Notes under the pieces: model-generated
The model's database searches: none
What the model saw: the letters and a program-made list of their open reading frames with translations, nothing else
Told to the model about the DNA's origin: nothing
Assembly: GCA_029881195.1 (NCBI GenBank)
Contig: JAOUNB010000004.1
Coordinates: 1-46,634, forward strand
From: Candidatus Nitrosopumilus sp.
GTDB lineage: Archaea; Thermoproteota; Nitrososphaeria; Nitrososphaerales; Nitrosopumilaceae
Length of the DNA stretch: 46,634 nucleotides
Direction: 5' to 3'
Program-made: the position numbers and the translations under genes
Part shown: positions 16,171 to 36,045 of the stretch, piece by piece
Layout of the letters: each line of letters opens with the position of its first letter
Position numbering within the stretch: position 1 is the stretch's first letter

Positions 16171-16449
16171 TTGAATAAAACATCCTCTAAATTTCTTGAA
16201 GGTTTTAAGTACATTTACCTTGTTGCATTCTTTGCATTACTTGCAGGATTTTTTCATCCATTAATTACTAACACAAGTTTGGATATTGTTATTATTGGAA
16301 TTTTAATATTGTTTGTAGGCCTTGCAGGTGGAGTATTACTTTATAGAGCTACTACCTCTGATAAGAAACAAGTAACATATCTTGTAGGGGGATTTGTCTT
16401 AATAGCAATTTCATTATATTATATTATTGCCCTAACTGGAAGAATCTAA
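16171..16449 (+). CDS. Small multi-TM membrane protein, hypothetical
   Basis: Three hydrophobic segments; TTG start. Confidence 0.6.
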   Translation: MNKTSSKFLEGFKYIYLVAFFALLAGFFHPLITNTSLDIVIIGILILFVGLAGGVLLYRATTSDKKQVTYLVGGFVLIAISLYYIIALTGRI

Positions 16450-17906
16450 ACATCAAAGTATAGATAAAATTCATGTGGGTGTGGCCTAATTGCTATTTCA
16501 CGTTGGTCACGTCTTTCTAACTCTATAATTTTATCAATTACATCATTTGTAAAAACTGTATTGAGGAATTTTCTATCACTTTCTAATTCATCTAATGCTT
16601 CTCCAAGACTTTTTGGAAGAACACCTATTCCTCTTCTAGCCCTATCAGATTTAGTCATCTTAAAAATATCATCACGTATCTCATCTCCAGGATCCATTTT
16701 CTTTTTTAATCCATCCATTCCAGCTGCCGTTACAGCAGCAAACACAAGATATGGATTTGATGAAGGATCAGGGGCTCTGAACTCCAGTCTTTTTAGATGT
16801 GAATAACCTTTTCCTGTTAGATGCTTAGGAACTCTTACAATAGCAGAACGGTTTCCTGAACTCCATGCAATATATGCTGGAGCTTCATAACCCGGTACTA
16901 ATCTATGGTATGAATTGGTAGTAGGATTACAAATTGCAGATAATGCTTTTGCGTGATTAATGATTCCACCACAAAAATATCTTCCAGTCTGACTTAACTC
17001 AATTTCATCATTTGGATCAAAAAATGCATTTTCATTTCCTTTCCATAAACTAACATTTACGTGCATTCCAGATCCCGAATCCATAGCAATTGGCTTGGGC
17101 ATCATTGTTGCAACTTTGCCATATTTTTGTGCAACATTTCTAATTACATACTTGTATGACTGAGCAGCATCAGCAGCATTTGTCATGTAATCATACTTTA
17201 TGTCAATTTCACATTGTCCTGCAGTTGCAACTTCGTGATGATGGTTATCACATAGTATTCCGAAATTACTTTTAAGAATATTCACACATTCATTTCTATA
17301 CGGTGTAAGAGTATCTGATGGCGTACTAGGATAATATCCTTCTTGTAATCCCATTGGATATCCATTTCCTTCTTGACTCCATGGAGCTTCTTTTGATTCA
17401 ATTGAGTATGATTGTCCTTTATACGGTGTTAAAACATCCCAATGAACTTTATCAAAAACAAAAAATTCTACCTCTGGACCCCACGTACTAAAATCAAATC
17501 CTTGAGATTTGATATACTCTTCAGCTTTTTGAGAAATTCCTCTAGGATCTCGTGATAATCTTCCTCTATTTTCTCCCCAGTAAATATCACAAAGAAGTCT
17601 GGCAGTTTTATTTTCAGTCATCCAAGGGATTATCGCAAATGTATTTGGATCTGGTTTTAAAAGCAGATCCGAATCATTGATACTGGCAAAACCGACTATC
17701 GATGAGCCATCTAATTTAGGTAATCCATCTCTCATCTGTTCGGGAGTAAAGGTATCAGCCGAAATTGTAGTGTGATGAAAATGACCTGTTAGACCAGTAA
17801 ATTGTAAATCGATAAATTGAATACCTTCATGTTGAATCCTAGAGAAAACTTCGTCAGGTGAATATGTTACTTGTATTGCTTTTCCGTGACTTACTTTATA
17901 GGGCAA
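16446..17906 (-). CDS. glnA: Glutamine synthetase type I
   Basis: 'KLDGSSIVGFASINDSDLLLKPD', 'TWGPEVEFFVFD', 'MDSGSGMHVNVSLWK', 'NSYHRLVPGYEAP', 'LEFRAPDPSSNPYL'. Confidence 0.95.
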   Translation of the reverse strand: MPYKVSHGKAIQVTYSPDEVFSRIQHEGIQFIDLQFTGLTGHFHHTTISADTFTPEQMRDGLPKLDGSSIVGFASINDSDLLLKPDPNTFAIIPWMTENKTARLLCDIYWGENRGRLSRDPRGISQKAEEYIKSQGFDFSTWGPEVEFFVFDKVHWDVLTPYKGQSYSIESKEAPWSQEGNGYPMGLQEGYYPSTPSDTLTPYRNECVNILKSNFGILCDNHHHEVATAGQCEIDIKYDYMTNAADAAQSYKYVIRNVAQKYGKVATMMPKPIAMDSGSGMHVNVSLWKGNENAFFDPNDEIELSQTGRYFCGGIINHAKALSAICNPTTNSYHRLVPGYEAPAYIAWSSGNRSAIVRVPKHLTGKGYSHLKRLEFRAPDPSSNPYLVFAAVTAAGMDGLKKKMDPGDEIRDDIFKMTKSDRARRGIGVLPKSLGEALDELESDRKFLNTVFTNDVIDKIIELERRDQREIAIRPHPHEFYLYFDV

Positions 17907-29318: not shown

Positions 29319-31064
29319 TCAATCCTCACCACCTCCACGACCTAAGTCCCCAATACCAAATTTATCAATAACTTGATTTCTTTCTTCATCAAGCTTTCGA
29401 ATTTCCTCATCCTCCCGTTTTTCATCTCCTTGATACACTGTTCTAATTGGCCATGGTATTCTAATATCATATTTTTTGAATTCTTCGTACATAATTATCC
29501 TAATATCCGTTTTAGTTTTGAATTGTGCACCATAATCCCTAACATAAACCCATAATGAAAAATCAAGTGACGAATCATTAAATTTGTTAAATCTCACAAC
29601 AGGTTGATTTATGTCGATATGAATATCTTTGTCACATCCACAACTTGGTCTATTATTATCCAAGTAAGGACATCTTTGTTGTTTAATGAGATGTCTTCCT
29701 CTTTCATCCATAACCTCTTTCATAGCACGTTTGCCAATCTTAACTAAAATTGCAGCTACCTGTTTAGGATTATTTAGATAAGAAACTCCTACTTCAACAA
29801 TTGCAGGCACCATTTTGATTTCTTTTGAATAATTAATTATTTGAGAATTAACAAGCTGTCTTGTTGGAATCACTGCATATGATTCATTTAATGCATCACG
29901 AATGAAAGTTACTCTGGGAGTAATTTTATGTACATATCCATTATATCCAGTATCTAATTGAACACGTTCACCTTCTGCAAAAATCTTATCTTTTCTAATC
30001 AATATATAAGCGAAATAATTTTGCATAGTTTCTTGCAATGCTAATCCTACACCTATAGCTAATCCTCCTGTAGCAGTTGCAAGTATTATCAAATCTATTC
30101 CCCACCAACTAATTACTCCAAGTATTACTGCAACAAATATTCCAAGTGGCAAAATTTGAGAAATTGACTTTGGAAGATCTTTTCTTTTTCTTTTTGCATA
30201 ACCCGGAGGTTTTGATCCAGGTATTATTGGATCAAAACTCCCAAATCTTTTTTCTTCTCTCCATGTATCTATAGGAAAAATCTCTTCAATATCTTGTCCA
30301 GGTTTTAATTTTTTTCCAGATTCATTATTTCCAGAAATACAATCATCATAATATTTCAGATATTTTCCTCTTTCAGATATCTTCCATTCTTCAAATGGAT
30401 CTTTAACTAGTTGTTCAAAACTCCCAATTGGCAATCCTTTTGTTGTTCTAAATTCTTCCAAAAATTTCCTTCCTTCTTCTGTTTCTAACTTTTTTTCAAA
30501 TTCTTCATCACTTAATTCATCTGGTGTATGTTTTGGAGGAACCCATTTATAGAATCTATGAAAAAGATCGTCATCATCATCTGGAAATCCTCGTAATTCT
30601 TTCCATGATTCAAAATCTTCTTTCTCAAAACTAGATTTTTCTTTTTTAGCAAGTATTATTGGAATTAAATGAGCAATAGAATATCCAATAACAAGAATAT
30701 TTATTGTATTGAGAATCTTCGCAAACGTTTCACTAGGAGCTAGTTTTTCCTCTGCATAAACTGAAACATCATTTTCAAATAGAGCAAATGATTGTATGTA
30801 GAAATTTACTGAGGTGATTAATATGATGGCAAAAAACGGTAAAATTACTACTCTGATAAATCTTGAAAGGTGTGGTCGTACATAATTCAATTTTTGCTTC
30901 TTAACAAATTTTGAAAATGTACGATAAATTACTACGATTCCAATAATGCCTACAATTAACACAATAAATGCTGCCTGAAGAGATTCAGATGACATTAGAA
31001 GCTGAGAAATACCCTGAAATTGGTCTACTTGCCCTGATACCGCATCAATTATTTCTTCAGCCAA
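29319..31064 (-). CDS. MscS family mechanosensitive ion channel with large cytoplasmic insertion
   Basis: MscS pore helix 'ATATGGLAIGVGLALQETMQNYFAYILI' and beta domain 'VIPTRQLVNSQIINYS'; about 150-aa charged insertion before the pore. Confidence 0.88.
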   Translation of the reverse strand: MAEEIIDAVSGQVDQFQGISQLLMSSESLQAAFIVLIVGIIGIVVIYRTFSKFVKKQKLNYVRPHLSRFIRVVILPFFAIILITSVNFYIQSFALFENDVSVYAEEKLAPSETFAKILNTINILVIGYSIAHLIPIILAKKEKSSFEKEDFESWKELRGFPDDDDDLFHRFYKWVPPKHTPDELSDEEFEKKLETEEGRKFLEEFRTTKGLPIGSFEQLVKDPFEEWKISERGKYLKYYDDCISGNNESGKKLKPGQDIEEIFPIDTWREEKRFGSFDPIIPGSKPPGYAKRKRKDLPKSISQILPLGIFVAVILGVISWWGIDLIILATATGGLAIGVGLALQETMQNYFAYILIRKDKIFAEGERVQLDTGYNGYVHKITPRVTFIRDALNESYAVIPTRQLVNSQIINYSKEIKMVPAIVEVGVSYLNNPKQVAAILVKIGKRAMKEVMDERGRHLIKQQRCPYLDNNRPSCGCDKDIHIDINQPVVRFNKFNDSSLDFSLWVYVRDYGAQFKTKTDIRIIMYEEFKKYDIRIPWPIRTVYQGDEKREDEEIRKLDEERNQVIDKFGIGDLGRGGGED

Positions 31065-31215
31065 TTAGATCCCTTTTACTCTTTTTTTCTATCATACATA
31101 GATTAACCTGATCCTCATTTCTGTTAGAATTTTCAATAAAACTATTATAAAATTTTAAATCTTTTATGTGTAAAAACCTGTAACCTTTAACAATAGTGTT
31201 TGTACTAATAACAGA

Positions 31216-32580
31216 ATGACCTATCAGAAAACAATATGGGATGATTCACCATCTTTAAAATCATATACTTTATCCAATTTTCGTACACTTCCACAAATTC
31301 AGAATCTTGGAGACGAAGTTCAGTTCGAAATGGAGGTTGTTGGAAACGTATTACCTTTTAAGGCAAATAACTATGTCGTTGAACAACTAATTGATTGGAA
31401 TAATGTCCCAAATGATCCAATGTTTGTCTTAACTTTCCCTCAAAAAGGAATGTTAAAACCTGAACATTATGACAAAATGGCAACTGCGTTAAAAAATAAT
31501 TTAGATAAAAAAGAAATTACAGCCATTGCAAATGAAATTCGCCTTCAACTAAATCCACACCCAGCTGGTCAAATGGAACTTAATGTTCCACAATTAAAAG
31601 ACGGAACTAAGTTATTTGGAATGCAACACAAATACAAAGAAACATGTCTTTTCTTCCCAAGTCAAAGTCAGACATGTCATGCATATTGTAGCTTTTGTTT
31701 TAGGTGGCCCCAATTTGTGGGAATGGATGAAATGAAATTTGCAATGCAAGAAGGAGAGCAATTAGTACAATATGTCAAAGAACATCCAGAAATTAGCGAT
31801 GTACTGTTTACAGGTGGAGATCCAATGATTATGAAAGCAAAAATTTTCTCAAAATATGTTGACACTCTGATTGATGCAAAACTTCCAAATCTCAAAACCA
31901 TTAGAATTGGAACAAAAGCTCTATCATATTGGCCTTACAAATTTTTGACAGATTCTGATTCTCAAGAAATGCTAGATGTATTTAGAAAAATTGTTGATAA
32001 TGGATTACATCTTGCAATAATGGGTCACTTTAATCATTTGAATGAATTATCAACGGATGCAGTCAAGAATGCGATTAGAGAAATAAGATCTACTGGAGCA
32101 ATAATCAGAACACAATCTCCACTTTTAGCTCACATCAACGATGATGCTGAAATGTGGGCAAAAATGTGGACTATTCAAGTTCAATTAGGATGTGTGCCAT
32201 ACTACATGTTTGTAGTTAGAGATACAGGCGCTCAACATTACTTTGGTGTTCCTTTAGTAAAGGCATATCAAATTTTCAAAAAGGCATATTCTTCGGTTAG
32301 TGGATTAGCAAGAACTGTTCGTGGACCTAGCATGTCTGCGACTCCAGGTAAAGTACATGTTATTGGAACTGCAGATCTTCAGGATCAAAAAGTAATTGTT
32401 TTGAGATTTTTGCAAGGTAGAAATCCTGATTGGGTTCAAGTACCATTTTTTGCAAAATACGATGAAAATGCAATTTGGTTAGATGATTTAAAGCCTGCAC
32501 TTACTGAAAAATTCTTCTTTGATGAGGAGATGAAAAATTTCAAAAAATCAAACCCACTGGATGATTATCCTGAATCTTAG
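31216..32580 (+). CDS. KamA family radical SAM protein (lysine/glutamate 2,3-aminomutase-like)
   Basis: Radical SAM Cys motif 'TCHAYCSFCFRWPQF' (CxxxCxxC), 'DVLFTGGDPMIM', 'LKTIRIGTKAL'. Confidence 0.88.
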   Translation: MTYQKTIWDDSPSLKSYTLSNFRTLPQIQNLGDEVQFEMEVVGNVLPFKANNYVVEQLIDWNNVPNDPMFVLTFPQKGMLKPEHYDKMATALKNNLDKKEITAIANEIRLQLNPHPAGQMELNVPQLKDGTKLFGMQHKYKETCLFFPSQSQTCHAYCSFCFRWPQFVGMDEMKFAMQEGEQLVQYVKEHPEISDVLFTGGDPMIMKAKIFSKYVDTLIDAKLPNLKTIRIGTKALSYWPYKFLTDSDSQEMLDVFRKIVDNGLHLAIMGHFNHLNELSTDAVKNAIREIRSTGAIIRTQSPLLAHINDDAEMWAKMWTIQVQLGCVPYYMFVVRDTGAQHYFGVPLVKAYQIFKKAYSSVSGLARTVRGPSMSATPGKVHVIGTADLQDQKVIVLRFLQGRNPDWVQVPFFAKYDENAIWLDDLKPALTEKFFFDEEMKNFKKSNPLDDYPES

Positions 32581-32651
32581 AATTTACCTGACCATCTTGA
32601 CAATTCTATCTTACTAAACAACATTAGTAAAATAATTCATTAAACAAACCA

Positions 32652-34097
32652 GTGAACTCAGATCAAGTGTTACAAACTATTAAAGATGAAAACATATCAT
32701 TTATCGATTTTTGGTTTGTAGATATTTTTGGAGAACTTCATAATGTTGGAATGCCAAGCTATGCAATTGATGAAAATAGTTTTATAAACGGTCTTGAAAA
32801 ATTGGATGCAAGTTCAATTGTTGGATTCAAATCAGTAAATAATTCTGATATGATTCTGATGCCAGATTCTAATTCGTTTAAAGTTCTTCCAAATGATTAT
32901 GATCCTGGCAATAGAAAAAATGCAAGAATATTTTGCGATCTTTATGATGGTAACACAAACAAAGAGTCAAGATATAACCGAGATTCAAGAGGCATTGCAT
33001 GTAAAGCATCAGAGAAACTCAAAGAATTTGGATTGACTCATACTAATTGGGGTCCTGAAATAGAATTTTTTGTTTTTGATACAATCAACGTTTATCCATC
33101 TCCTTATGCTGCAACCCATTCTGGTGGAGGTTCTGGATACTCAATTGAATCTAAAGAATCGCCTTGGGCAAAAGGAAATGTAAGCACTGCAATAGATATC
33201 AAAGAGGGATACTATCCATCACAGCCAAAAGACACTCTTAATGGTTTTCGTAAAGATGTATGTGATGATTTATACAATTATTTTGGCATAAAAATTGAAG
33301 CTGAACATCATGAAGTAGCGACCTCAGGTCAATGTGAAATTAATTTAGTTTATGACGAAATGATTGCCATGGCTGACAATGTAATTGCAGTTAAAAATTT
33401 GGTAAAGGTAAAAGCTAAAAGAAAGAATAAAGTTGCTACTTTTATGCCAAAACCAATTTTTGGTGATAATGCATCAGCAATGCATACTCACCAAAGCTTA
33501 TGGAATGAAAAAACCAATGTAATGTATGATCATGATGATGAAATAGCACAGATGAGTCAAATTGGGAGATATTATATTGGTGGAATCTTAGATCATGCAA
33601 AAGCTTTATGCGCAATCTCAAATCCTACAACAAATTCTTACAAACGACTTGTTCCTGGCTTTGAAGCACCTGTAAACGTTTGTTGGGGATTAGCAAATAG
33701 ATCTACTGCTATTAGGGTTCCAATGTATAATAGAAATCAGGAAAAAAGTAAGAGAATTGAATATAGAGTCCCTGATCCAACTGCAAACATCTATCTCTTA
33801 GAAGCTGCATTATTGTTAGCAGGATTGGATGGAATCAAAAATAAAATTGATCCTGGTGATCCCGTAGAAGAAAATGTGTACAAACTTTCTTCAGAAAAGA
33901 AACGAGAATATAATATTGGAAGTTTACCAGTATCTTTGAAAGGAGCACTTGATTCTCTTTCTAGTGATTCAAAATTCTTAGAAGAAGTTTTCACTAAAGA
34001 CTTTATTGATGCATACTCTGAACTAAAATACAAAGAATATACTGCCTTTGCACAAACCCCCACAGCTTGGGAAGTCTCAATGTATGCTGATGCCTAA
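32652..34097 (+). CDS. Glutamine synthetase family protein (divergent paralogue)
   Basis: 'KLDASSIVGFKSVNNSDMILMPD', 'NWGPEIEFFVFD', 'GDNASAMHTHQSLW', 'NSYKRLVPGFEAP', 'IEYRVPDPTANIYL'; GTG start. Confidence 0.93.
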   Translation: MNSDQVLQTIKDENISFIDFWFVDIFGELHNVGMPSYAIDENSFINGLEKLDASSIVGFKSVNNSDMILMPDSNSFKVLPNDYDPGNRKNARIFCDLYDGNTNKESRYNRDSRGIACKASEKLKEFGLTHTNWGPEIEFFVFDTINVYPSPYAATHSGGGSGYSIESKESPWAKGNVSTAIDIKEGYYPSQPKDTLNGFRKDVCDDLYNYFGIKIEAEHHEVATSGQCEINLVYDEMIAMADNVIAVKNLVKVKAKRKNKVATFMPKPIFGDNASAMHTHQSLWNEKTNVMYDHDDEIAQMSQIGRYYIGGILDHAKALCAISNPTTNSYKRLVPGFEAPVNVCWGLANRSTAIRVPMYNRNQEKSKRIEYRVPDPTANIYLLEAALLLAGLDGIKNKIDPGDPVEENVYKLSSEKKREYNIGSLPVSLKGALDSLSSDSKFLEEVFTKDFIDAYSELKYKEYTAFAQTPTAWEVSMYADA

Positions 34098-34180: not shown

Positions 34181-34825
34181 TTGGTATTGAAATTAAAATC
34201 CACTTTATTCATTTTGTTAATTATCCCAAATTTAGCTGGAATTGCATACGGTCATACAGTTGATTCTGTTGGAGAATATAGAGTAGAAATAGGCTGGATG
34301 AATGAACCAGTAGTTTCTGGAGAAACTAATGCAATAGAATTCTATGTTAGTCCACTTGAACCAGAATTAGATTTTGAAGATCAAGTTTTTAAAAATGGGA
34401 TTACAGATTTAAAAAAAACAATTAAAATTAAATTAATCTACAAAGATGAGAGCATTACCCTTCCTCTATCCCCAGATCATAATATCCCTGGAAAATATTA
34501 TGCATTCATCAATCCAACCGTTTCTGGATTTTATCAAGCAAATATTTTAGGAACAATCAATGATACTCCAATCAGTTTATCGATGCATCCACCAAAAGTA
34601 GAAGAACGTGCTTACATCGAATTTCCTGAACCATCAGATCTTACATTAACTCAAATAATTGATGGACACACTGTACTAATTGGTGACATTCATGATCTGA
34701 AAGAATCAGTTGATTCACTTCAAGAATTAAAACAGCAAATGGATGTAGGGTACATTGGTATTGGAGTTGGTATGGCTGGTATTGCTATTGCTGTAACTGC
34801 ACTTGTAAAATCTAAAAAGAATTAA
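34181..34825 (+). CDS. Exported membrane-anchored protein, beta-sandwich (CopC-like?) hypothetical
   Basis: N-terminal signal 'LFILLIIPNLAGIAYGH', C-terminal TM 'GYIGIGVGMAGIAIAVTALV'; TTG start. Confidence 0.55.
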   Translation: MVLKLKSTLFILLIIPNLAGIAYGHTVDSVGEYRVEIGWMNEPVVSGETNAIEFYVSPLEPELDFEDQVFKNGITDLKKTIKIKLIYKDESITLPLSPDHNIPGKYYAFINPTVSGFYQANILGTINDTPISLSMHPPKVEERAYIEFPEPSDLTLTQIIDGHTVLIGDIHDLKESVDSLQELKQQMDVGYIGIGVGMAGIAIAVTALVKSKKN

Positions 34826-36045
34826 TTTGAGATCTTATCATCTTTTTTAAAAGAGTGTCTTAGTAATATTGGTCCAATAATAATGGTACCTAATATTACA
34901 AAAATTAGTGTTGAGAAAATACCTTCTGAAATAATTTCATATCCTAATCCTAATCCTGCAGTAATGAATGCAATTTCACCTCTAACAATCATTCCATAAC
35001 CTATCCGTAAACCTTTATTCTTATTTTTGAGTAATATGATTGCTGGAATTCCAGAACCTAAAATTTTACCAATAACTGCAATTATCAAAATTACAGCAAA
35101 TAAGACTAGATCTACATTCAAAATATTTGAAATATCAATATGTGTGCCAATTATTGCAAAGAAAAATGGAGCAAAAATAATTTGTAATCTTCCAACAAAT
35201 TCTTTAACCTGATTTGCTAACTTGGAATCAGCAAGTCCCATCCCTGCTGCAAATGCTCCAACTATGGGGTTAAGACCAATACTTGCAGCAATTGCTGCTA
35301 CACCAAATGCTGAACCGAGTGCAGTTGCTTGTTTTGTACCTCTAGATTCAAGTGAGTTAGGTCTCATAGTTGCTACAGCATGAACTATCTTAGGTAGCAA
35401 AAATACGGAACCAAATAGAAGAGCAACCCATAAAATCAATGATTCTGAAATCTCAAATAGCACTGTCTCCAATGATGGCAATGAATGTGCAATTACAATT
35501 GAAATAATAGATGATAAAATTGCTAAACCTAATACATCATCAAGTACTGCAGCATTAACTAAAATATTTCCTTCCTGTGTTTTCTCTTTTTTTAACTCAT
35601 CCAAAATTGTTACAGCTGCTGCAATACTTGTTGCACTCAGTGTTGCACCAATAATCATTGCAACCATCCAATCAATTCCAAGTAATGTAGAAATTCCATA
35701 TCCCAGTATTAATGGAATTATAACTCCTGCAGTACCAACTACTACAGCTTGTATTCCTGCTTGTTTTAAACTAGAAAAAGTAAAATGAAGACCAGCCGAA
35801 AATAAAATTATAATTCCAGCTATTTGCCAAAATGATAACATTAATTCATTTAACTCTACAATTGACCTATCATAGAATTGTATCCATCCTCCTAATGCAA
35901 ACGGACTTAAAATTATTCCACCAATTACAAAACCGATTATTTCAGAAATTCCAAAATGTTTACAAATTTTACCTAGTAACATTGATGGAATAACTAAAAC
36001 TAAAATACCAACTAATGTAGGAATTGCATCAAATTCTGTTACCAT
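34822..36045 (-). CDS. Kef-type / CPA2 monovalent cation:proton antiporter
   Basis: 12+ TM; 'HFGISEIIGFVIGGIILSP', 'GATLSATSIAAAVTILDEL', 'VGAFAAGMGLADS'. Confidence 0.9.
   Translation of the reverse strand: MVTEFDAIPTLVGILVLVIPSMLLGKICKHFGISEIIGFVIGGIILSPFALGGWIQFYDRSIVELNELMLSFWQIAGIIILFSAGLHFTFSSLKQAGIQAVVVGTAGVIIPLILGYGISTLLGIDWMVAMIIGATLSATSIAAAVTILDELKKEKTQEGNILVNAAVLDDVLGLAILSSIISIVIAHSLPSLETVLFEISESLILWVALLFGSVFLLPKIVHAVATMRPNSLESRGTKQATALGSAFGVAAIAASIGLNPIVGAFAAGMGLADSKLANQVKEFVGRLQIIFAPFFFAIIGTHIDISNILNVDLVLFAVILIIAVIGKILGSGIPAIILLKNKNKGLRIGYGMIVRGEIAFITAGLGLGYEIISEGIFSTLIFVILGTIIIGPILLRHSFKKDDKISN

Follow-up and report, generated by a model that had tools for sequence, protein, structure and literature searches.

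In Candidatus Nitrosopumilus sp., a KamA-family radical-SAM gene and a second glutamine synthetase (GS) gene, GS2, lie side by side and divergent from a mechanosensitive channel gene, and together they are likely to form an osmolyte pathway in which KamA would make beta-glutamate, GS2 would make beta-glutamine and the MscS-family channel would release the solute. The two biosynthetic halves differ in strength. KamA probably isomerises glutamate to beta-glutamate, and this aminomutase half is well supported, whereas amidation of beta-glutamate to beta-glutamine by GS2 is plausible but weaker, an evenly balanced proposition. The features lie in the window (the whole stretch of 46,634 nucleotides analysed here), which comes from a 1.59 Mb assembly that is 99% complete:

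29319 to 31064, minus strand: MscS-family mechanosensitive channel, divergent from KamA and its conserved partner (75/77 named loci)
31065 to 31215, no strand: intergenic region common to MscS and KamA, with TTAACC-type motifs on both sides and a putative function
31216 to 32580, plus strand: KamA-family radical-SAM/PLP aminomutase (454 aa), predicted glutamate 2,3-aminomutase
32652 to 34097, plus strand: GS2 (481 aa), divergent type I glutamine synthetase with a DNASAMH loop, predicted beta-glutamine synthetase
16446 to 17906, minus strand: GS1, the canonical glutamine synthetase against which GS2 is compared
34822 to 36045, minus strand: Na_H_Exchanger-family antiporter, a neighbour in a subset of relatives and context outside the core

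The layout given in the initial annotation, KamA followed by a second GS in the same orientation after 71 bp, is confirmed by these coordinates. A genome search found KamA as a single copy and one paralogue of GS2, the canonical GS1 (46% identity). In the proposed pathway, KamA would act as a radical-SAM, PLP-dependent 2,3-aminomutase that converts glutamate to beta-glutamate, which would pool as an anionic osmolyte. In lineages bearing GS2, part of it would react with ATP and ammonia to give beta-glutamine, a neutral zwitterionic solute, and upon down-shock the divergent MscS channel would let solute out. The sequences themselves show which genes are present, which residues are substituted, and how far the genes are conserved, linked and found together; we infer the substrates of both enzymes, the role of Arg335, the osmotic role in the window's organism and the direction and regulation of the flux.

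Lysine 2,3-aminomutase (LAM; 2a5h) is the sole solved relative of KamA by sequence (alignment E 5e-18). An AF2 model of KamA likewise has 2a5h as its closest fold; the model is of low confidence (pLDDT 71) and was used for fold recognition only, so that all residue claims rest on alignments. The cluster motif CxxxCxxC (C154/C158/C161), GGDP and Lys379 (LAM Lys337) match LAM, as in the KamA family generally, and Arg163 (LAM Arg134) is also conserved. We take LAM Arg134 to bind the alpha-carboxylate, Lys337 to bind PLP, and Asp293 and Asp330 to bind the epsilon-amino group of lysine. A manual alignment had suggested that Arg replaces the first lysine-binding Asp, and the 2a5h alignment bears this out, with KamA 'YYMFVVRD' over LAM 'YYIYQCDL' and Arg335 at Asp293. 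The second Asp region, noted earlier as altered ('GPSMSATPGK'), indeed has Ser372 at Asp330 in an ungapped alignment with LAM-type relatives. Since Arg163 and Lys379 are kept while positions 335 and 372 have changed, the alpha-amino-acid and PLP machinery appears to be retained, with a side-chain pocket turned from acidic to basic. A basic residue at Asp293 and no acid at Asp330 is the residue pattern expected of a glutamate 2,3-aminomutase, and KamA shows it.

Arg335 is invariant in 28 aligned relatives, is retained down to 63% identity, is likewise constant in the aligned bacterial sisters, and occurs in every variant listed among 97 distinct KamA proteins (the 12 commonest per motif). Position 372 is more variable, with Val in several bacterial relatives and Ile in one genome (G003). 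Of the curated families, TIGR00238 (KamA) gives the highest score, yet one below its cut-off (127 vs 199 bits). Scores against the more specific models are also far below their cut-offs: glutamate 2,3-aminomutase (TIGR04368; 87 vs 650 bits), AblA (TIGR03820; 106 vs 525, with both Asp replaced), EpmB (100 vs 369) and arginine aminomutase (94 vs 600). KamA therefore represents a separate, uncharacterised KamA subfamily outside TIGR04368 that is probably glutamate 2,3-aminomutase-like. One further locus considered as a reference for such enzymes (L120, genome G203) was discarded because both LAM aspartates are present.

GS2 is almost confined to genomes that carry KamA. Among 172 Nitrosopumilaceae genomes, 93 carry both, 33 KamA only, 3 GS2 only and 43 neither (Fisher p = 3e-16, with phylogeny not corrected for), so that KamA is present in 126/172. 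These counts use a GS2 threshold of E <= 1e-150, by which fragments and strongly diverged copies are scored as absent, and a missing match in an incomplete assembly is no proof of absence. The three genomes with GS2 but without KamA (3/96 GS2 carriers) are 85-91% complete. Outside the window's genus, the corresponding numbers (both/KamA only/GS2 only/neither) are 36/22/1/40. In two genera, g4 (6/0/0/7) and g8 (7/0/0/20), the genes are present or missing as a pair, and genera g9, g15 and g16 mostly have KamA alone.

Linkage in relatives had been set beforehand as a test of the proposal. In 72 of the 93 two-gene genomes, KamA and GS2 are adjacent on one strand with 61-128 bp between match ends, a linkage far above chance. 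In another 5 they lie within 0.5-2.3 kb, and in the remaining 16 they are unlinked or on other contigs. For example, five well-assembled genomes with near relatives of this KamA (G042, G054, G060, G088 and G124) have GS2 elsewhere.

GS2 scores above the GlnA (TIGR00653) cut-off (519.6 vs 429 bits), which places it among type I GS, and its metal, ammonium and glutamate motifs are intact (by a numbering that we take to be D50, E131, Y179, E212, E220, H269, R321, E327, R339 and R359). It differs from GS1 in having DASSI and DNASAMH rather than DGSSI and DSGSGMH. DNASAMH stands in place of the loop DNGSGMH, with Ala as the equivalent of Gly265, a residue that in Salmonella GS touches the amino group of the substrate through its carbonyl. 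The Salmonella and Synechocystis references used in the motif comparison and the tree deviate from their sequences in the GS2 alignment at a few N-terminal letters and one spot, respectively, none of them in the compared motifs. Both motifs highlighted by the initial annotation are thus real, but they fare differently as markers. DNASAMH is clade-specific: it is identical in 70/71 distinct GS2 sequences, the remaining one having an ambiguous residue beside the loop, and at the DNA level 96 genomes of the family have it, and the single match elsewhere (G133) falls outside any GS gene. DASSI was rejected as a GS2 diagnostic because some GS2 proteins have Gly or Ser there. In the tree, GS2 forms one clade (100/100), separate from GS1 and the soil-type GS. 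As a sign of a beta-glutamine synthetase, the DNASAMH loop is suggestive only.

The same data bear on the main alternative, in which beta-glutamate is still the product of KamA but GS2 is a normal additional GS, linked to KamA through nitrogen supply or coordinated expression. This is a serious possibility, though a less favoured one. A GlnA-level score with catalytic and substrate-binding motifs kept is what an ordinary enzyme would have, and KamA does without GS2 in 33 genomes; however, the genome already has a canonical GS1, GS2 is hardly ever found without KamA, and the DNASAMH loop is restricted to the GS2 clade. The beta-glutamine half is the weaker one because of those 33 genomes and because a literature search found no report of beta-glutamine for these ammonia-oxidising archaea.

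Variation among GS genes was also seen at individual loci. GS2 appears broken or truncated beside an intact KamA in some cases (L016, L110, L065; G031), which suggests that it is dispensable there. A few Nitrosopumilaceae assemblies contain an additional, soil-family-type GS, ~50% identical to GS2 (L156, L157; G112, G206, G220). In L156 and L157 its loop reads DNGSAMH, and it may be a third GS or contamination.

That KamA makes beta-glutamate agrees with metabolite data from the same genus. In N. maritimus SCM1, beta-glutamate reaches 730 mM and is the top identified metabolite (PMC8269262). A literature search found no biosynthetic gene named for it, and KamA occurs in 68/73 sampled genomes of the window's genus. 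For the sediment lineages NP-theta and NP-delta, no known osmolyte pathway was reported in MAGs (Kerou et al., PMC8397731). KamA is present in members of both, NPMR_NP_theta_1 (L083) and NPMR_NP_delta_1 (L080), the latter also with GS2.

KamA has a bacterial sister group. Full-length homologues with 43-51% identity are found on plasmids of Mycetohabitans, Burkholderia, Amycolatopsis, Nonomuraea, Nocardia, Streptomyces and Rhodococcus. Like the archaeal KamA, they fall below the TIGR00238 cut-off, and they share with it an R-D-T-G motif and an RxxRGPxMS loop. Archaeal and bacterial members form a monophyletic RDTG subfamily (100/100), with R-[DN]-T-G in 19/19 members, and the Mycetohabitans sequence adjoins the archaeal branch (support 99/96).

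One bacterial relative points to a possible functional precedent. In Streptomyces NBC_00334 (L166), it lies among PKS genes of a macrolactam-type cluster, with a PLP enzyme, an AMP-binding protein and a proline-iminopeptidase-like hydrolase as neighbours. The best solved match of the AMP-binding protein is the AMP-dependent ligase 5jjq (619 bits), which we take to be the beta-amino-acid adenylation enzyme IdnL1, and that of the hydrolase is 3wmr (481 bits), presumably the amidohydrolase VinJ. Crystal structures of IdnL1 and VinJ are covered in a review (PMC11284099), according to which the 3-aminobutyrate of incednine derives from glutamate via beta-glutamate and the radical-SAM gene idnL4 is genetically required for it, IdnL4 activity not having been observed in vitro. 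IdnL4 of the incednine-producing Streptomyces resembles the window's KamA as a radical-SAM enzyme proposed to convert glutamate to beta-glutamate, and L166 clusters with a similar adenylation enzyme and amidohydrolase. Judging from this similarity of gene clusters, IdnL4 may belong to the RDTG clade. It differs in serving an antibiotic starter-unit pathway that includes a beta-glutamate decarboxylase, and we know of no GS or MscS partner for it. To our knowledge, no RDTG-clade enzyme has been found to act on glutamate in vitro.

The bacterial neighbourhoods are varied. In Amycolatopsis AA4 (L161, 8014-20218), an RDTG KamA lies by a Glu/Leu-type dehydrogenase, CoA ester lyases, MaoC dehydratases and a PLP aminotransferase, a setting that looks like amino-dicarboxylate metabolism. 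Two rhizobial KamA relatives (L169 and L170; ~34% identical) likewise carry Arg where LAM has Asp293. Both have ATP-grasp-type genes nearby, and L169 has an ectoine synthase gene as well.

Such variety among the bacterial clusters would also fit a 2,3-aminomutase acting on a different amino acid whose side chain bears a carboxylate or amide (aspartate, glutamine or 2-aminoadipate), and Arg335 implies an acidic or polar side chain without fixing its length. Against this, beta-glutamate is the top identified metabolite of N. maritimus and the incednine precedent uses glutamate, so that a different substrate appears improbable. The proposal of the initial annotation, an aminomutase for an acidic side chain that feeds an osmolyte pathway, is supported indirectly by the invariant Arg, the bacterial sisters, the co-occurrence with GS2, the channel neighbours of two types, the lack of markers for other routes in the genome and the beta-glutamate pool of N. 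maritimus, and glutamate remains the preferred candidate.

The channel neighbours point in the same direction. Of the 77 named loci that extend sufficiently, 75 have a divergent MscS-family gene whose start lies upstream of KamA at a distance of 118-297 bp, and genus g2 has another, short type of MscS downstream of KamA. Two unlike MscS types by one biosynthetic gene suggest that its product is an osmolyte. Na+/H+ exchangers lie beside several KamA loci. The position of the Mycetohabitans sequence next to the archaeal clade is consistent with horizontal transfer, and KamA could in principle have come from bacteria with a pathway of another kind, secondary or catabolic, so that its neighbourhood would be coincidental; but its retention in most family genomes, the recurrent MscS linkage and the different MscS in another genus make this very improbable.

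Further details of these loci may bear on regulation. In L133 (7676-10991; genus g2), KamA, a DUF432 protein, the short MscS, an AsnC-type ligand-binding domain and GS2 are arranged like an operon, in which the AsnC-type protein might sense an amino acid. In the intergenic region of the window, a TTAACC-type near-palindrome (consensus AGGTTAACCT in 12 relatives) lies on the MscS side, and another TTAACC-type motif, AACCTTTAACAA, precedes the KamA start (12 relatives). Both may form a common MscS/KamA operator.

Other osmolyte routes were considered for the window's genome. A lysine 2,3-aminomutase making beta-lysine, which would agree with LAM as best solved relative and with the annotation of the plasmid homologues as lysine 2,3-aminomutase, has a next to negligible probability, as both lysine-binding Asp are replaced, the AblA and EpmB scores are far under the cut-offs, and AblB was not found in the genome, for which reason the LAM/AblB pathway was dropped. 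The HGD-D dehydratase (PF06050), taken here as the marker of the beta-glutamate route proposed for methanogens, has no match in the genome, and that route was set aside on this ground. Ectoine was dropped because the only ectoine synthase match is weak and below the cut-off.

Several known systems can be compared with the archaeal genes. The glutamate 2,3-aminomutase of Clostridium (TIGR04368) has the KamA-family radical-SAM fold, the same predicted reaction and a basic residue at LAM Asp293, which is Lys in that enzyme; in contrast, the window's KamA has Arg and matches the model over only part of its length. AblA (2a5h) and AblB of methanogens share with the proposed pathway the fold, cluster cysteines and PLP lysine, as well as the principle that an aminomutase forms a beta-amino-acid osmolyte, whose charge the product of a second gene then neutralises; the differences are the loss of both lysine-binding Asp and a GS, not an acetyltransferase, as partner. 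In methanogens, a different lineage, NMR evidence excluded an aminomutase route to beta-glutamate, and a GS of Methanohalophilus forms beta-glutamine (PMC1224877). The likeness to Methanohalophilus portucalensis, that is, beta-glutamate amidation for osmotic balance, is one of reported activity in that organism and of prediction for GS2, which differs in being a second GS beside an aminomutase. The ectABCD cluster of Nitrosopumilus maritimus (PMC5924519) likewise serves osmolyte biosynthesis in the same genus. However, ectoine synthase scores strongly in only 12/301 sampled class genomes, the window's not among them, while KamA is found in most family genomes.

Few cells in the ocean are as abundant as marine ammonia-oxidising archaea. 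Tentatively, and with somewhat less than even confidence, KamA, a dedicated beta-glutamine synthetase and MscS may be the osmotic module of most of them, in which GS2 lineages would switch between an anionic and a neutral solute and many small-genome lineages would keep the first step only. If true, the proposed pathway would supply the missing gene for the top identified metabolite of Nitrosopumilus maritimus. If confirmed, KamA would provide a genetic marker by which metagenomes could be screened for beta-glutamate production and would represent a second archaeal origin of beta-glutamate, distinct from that proposed for methanogens, and GS2 would likely be a specialised beta-amino-acid GS.
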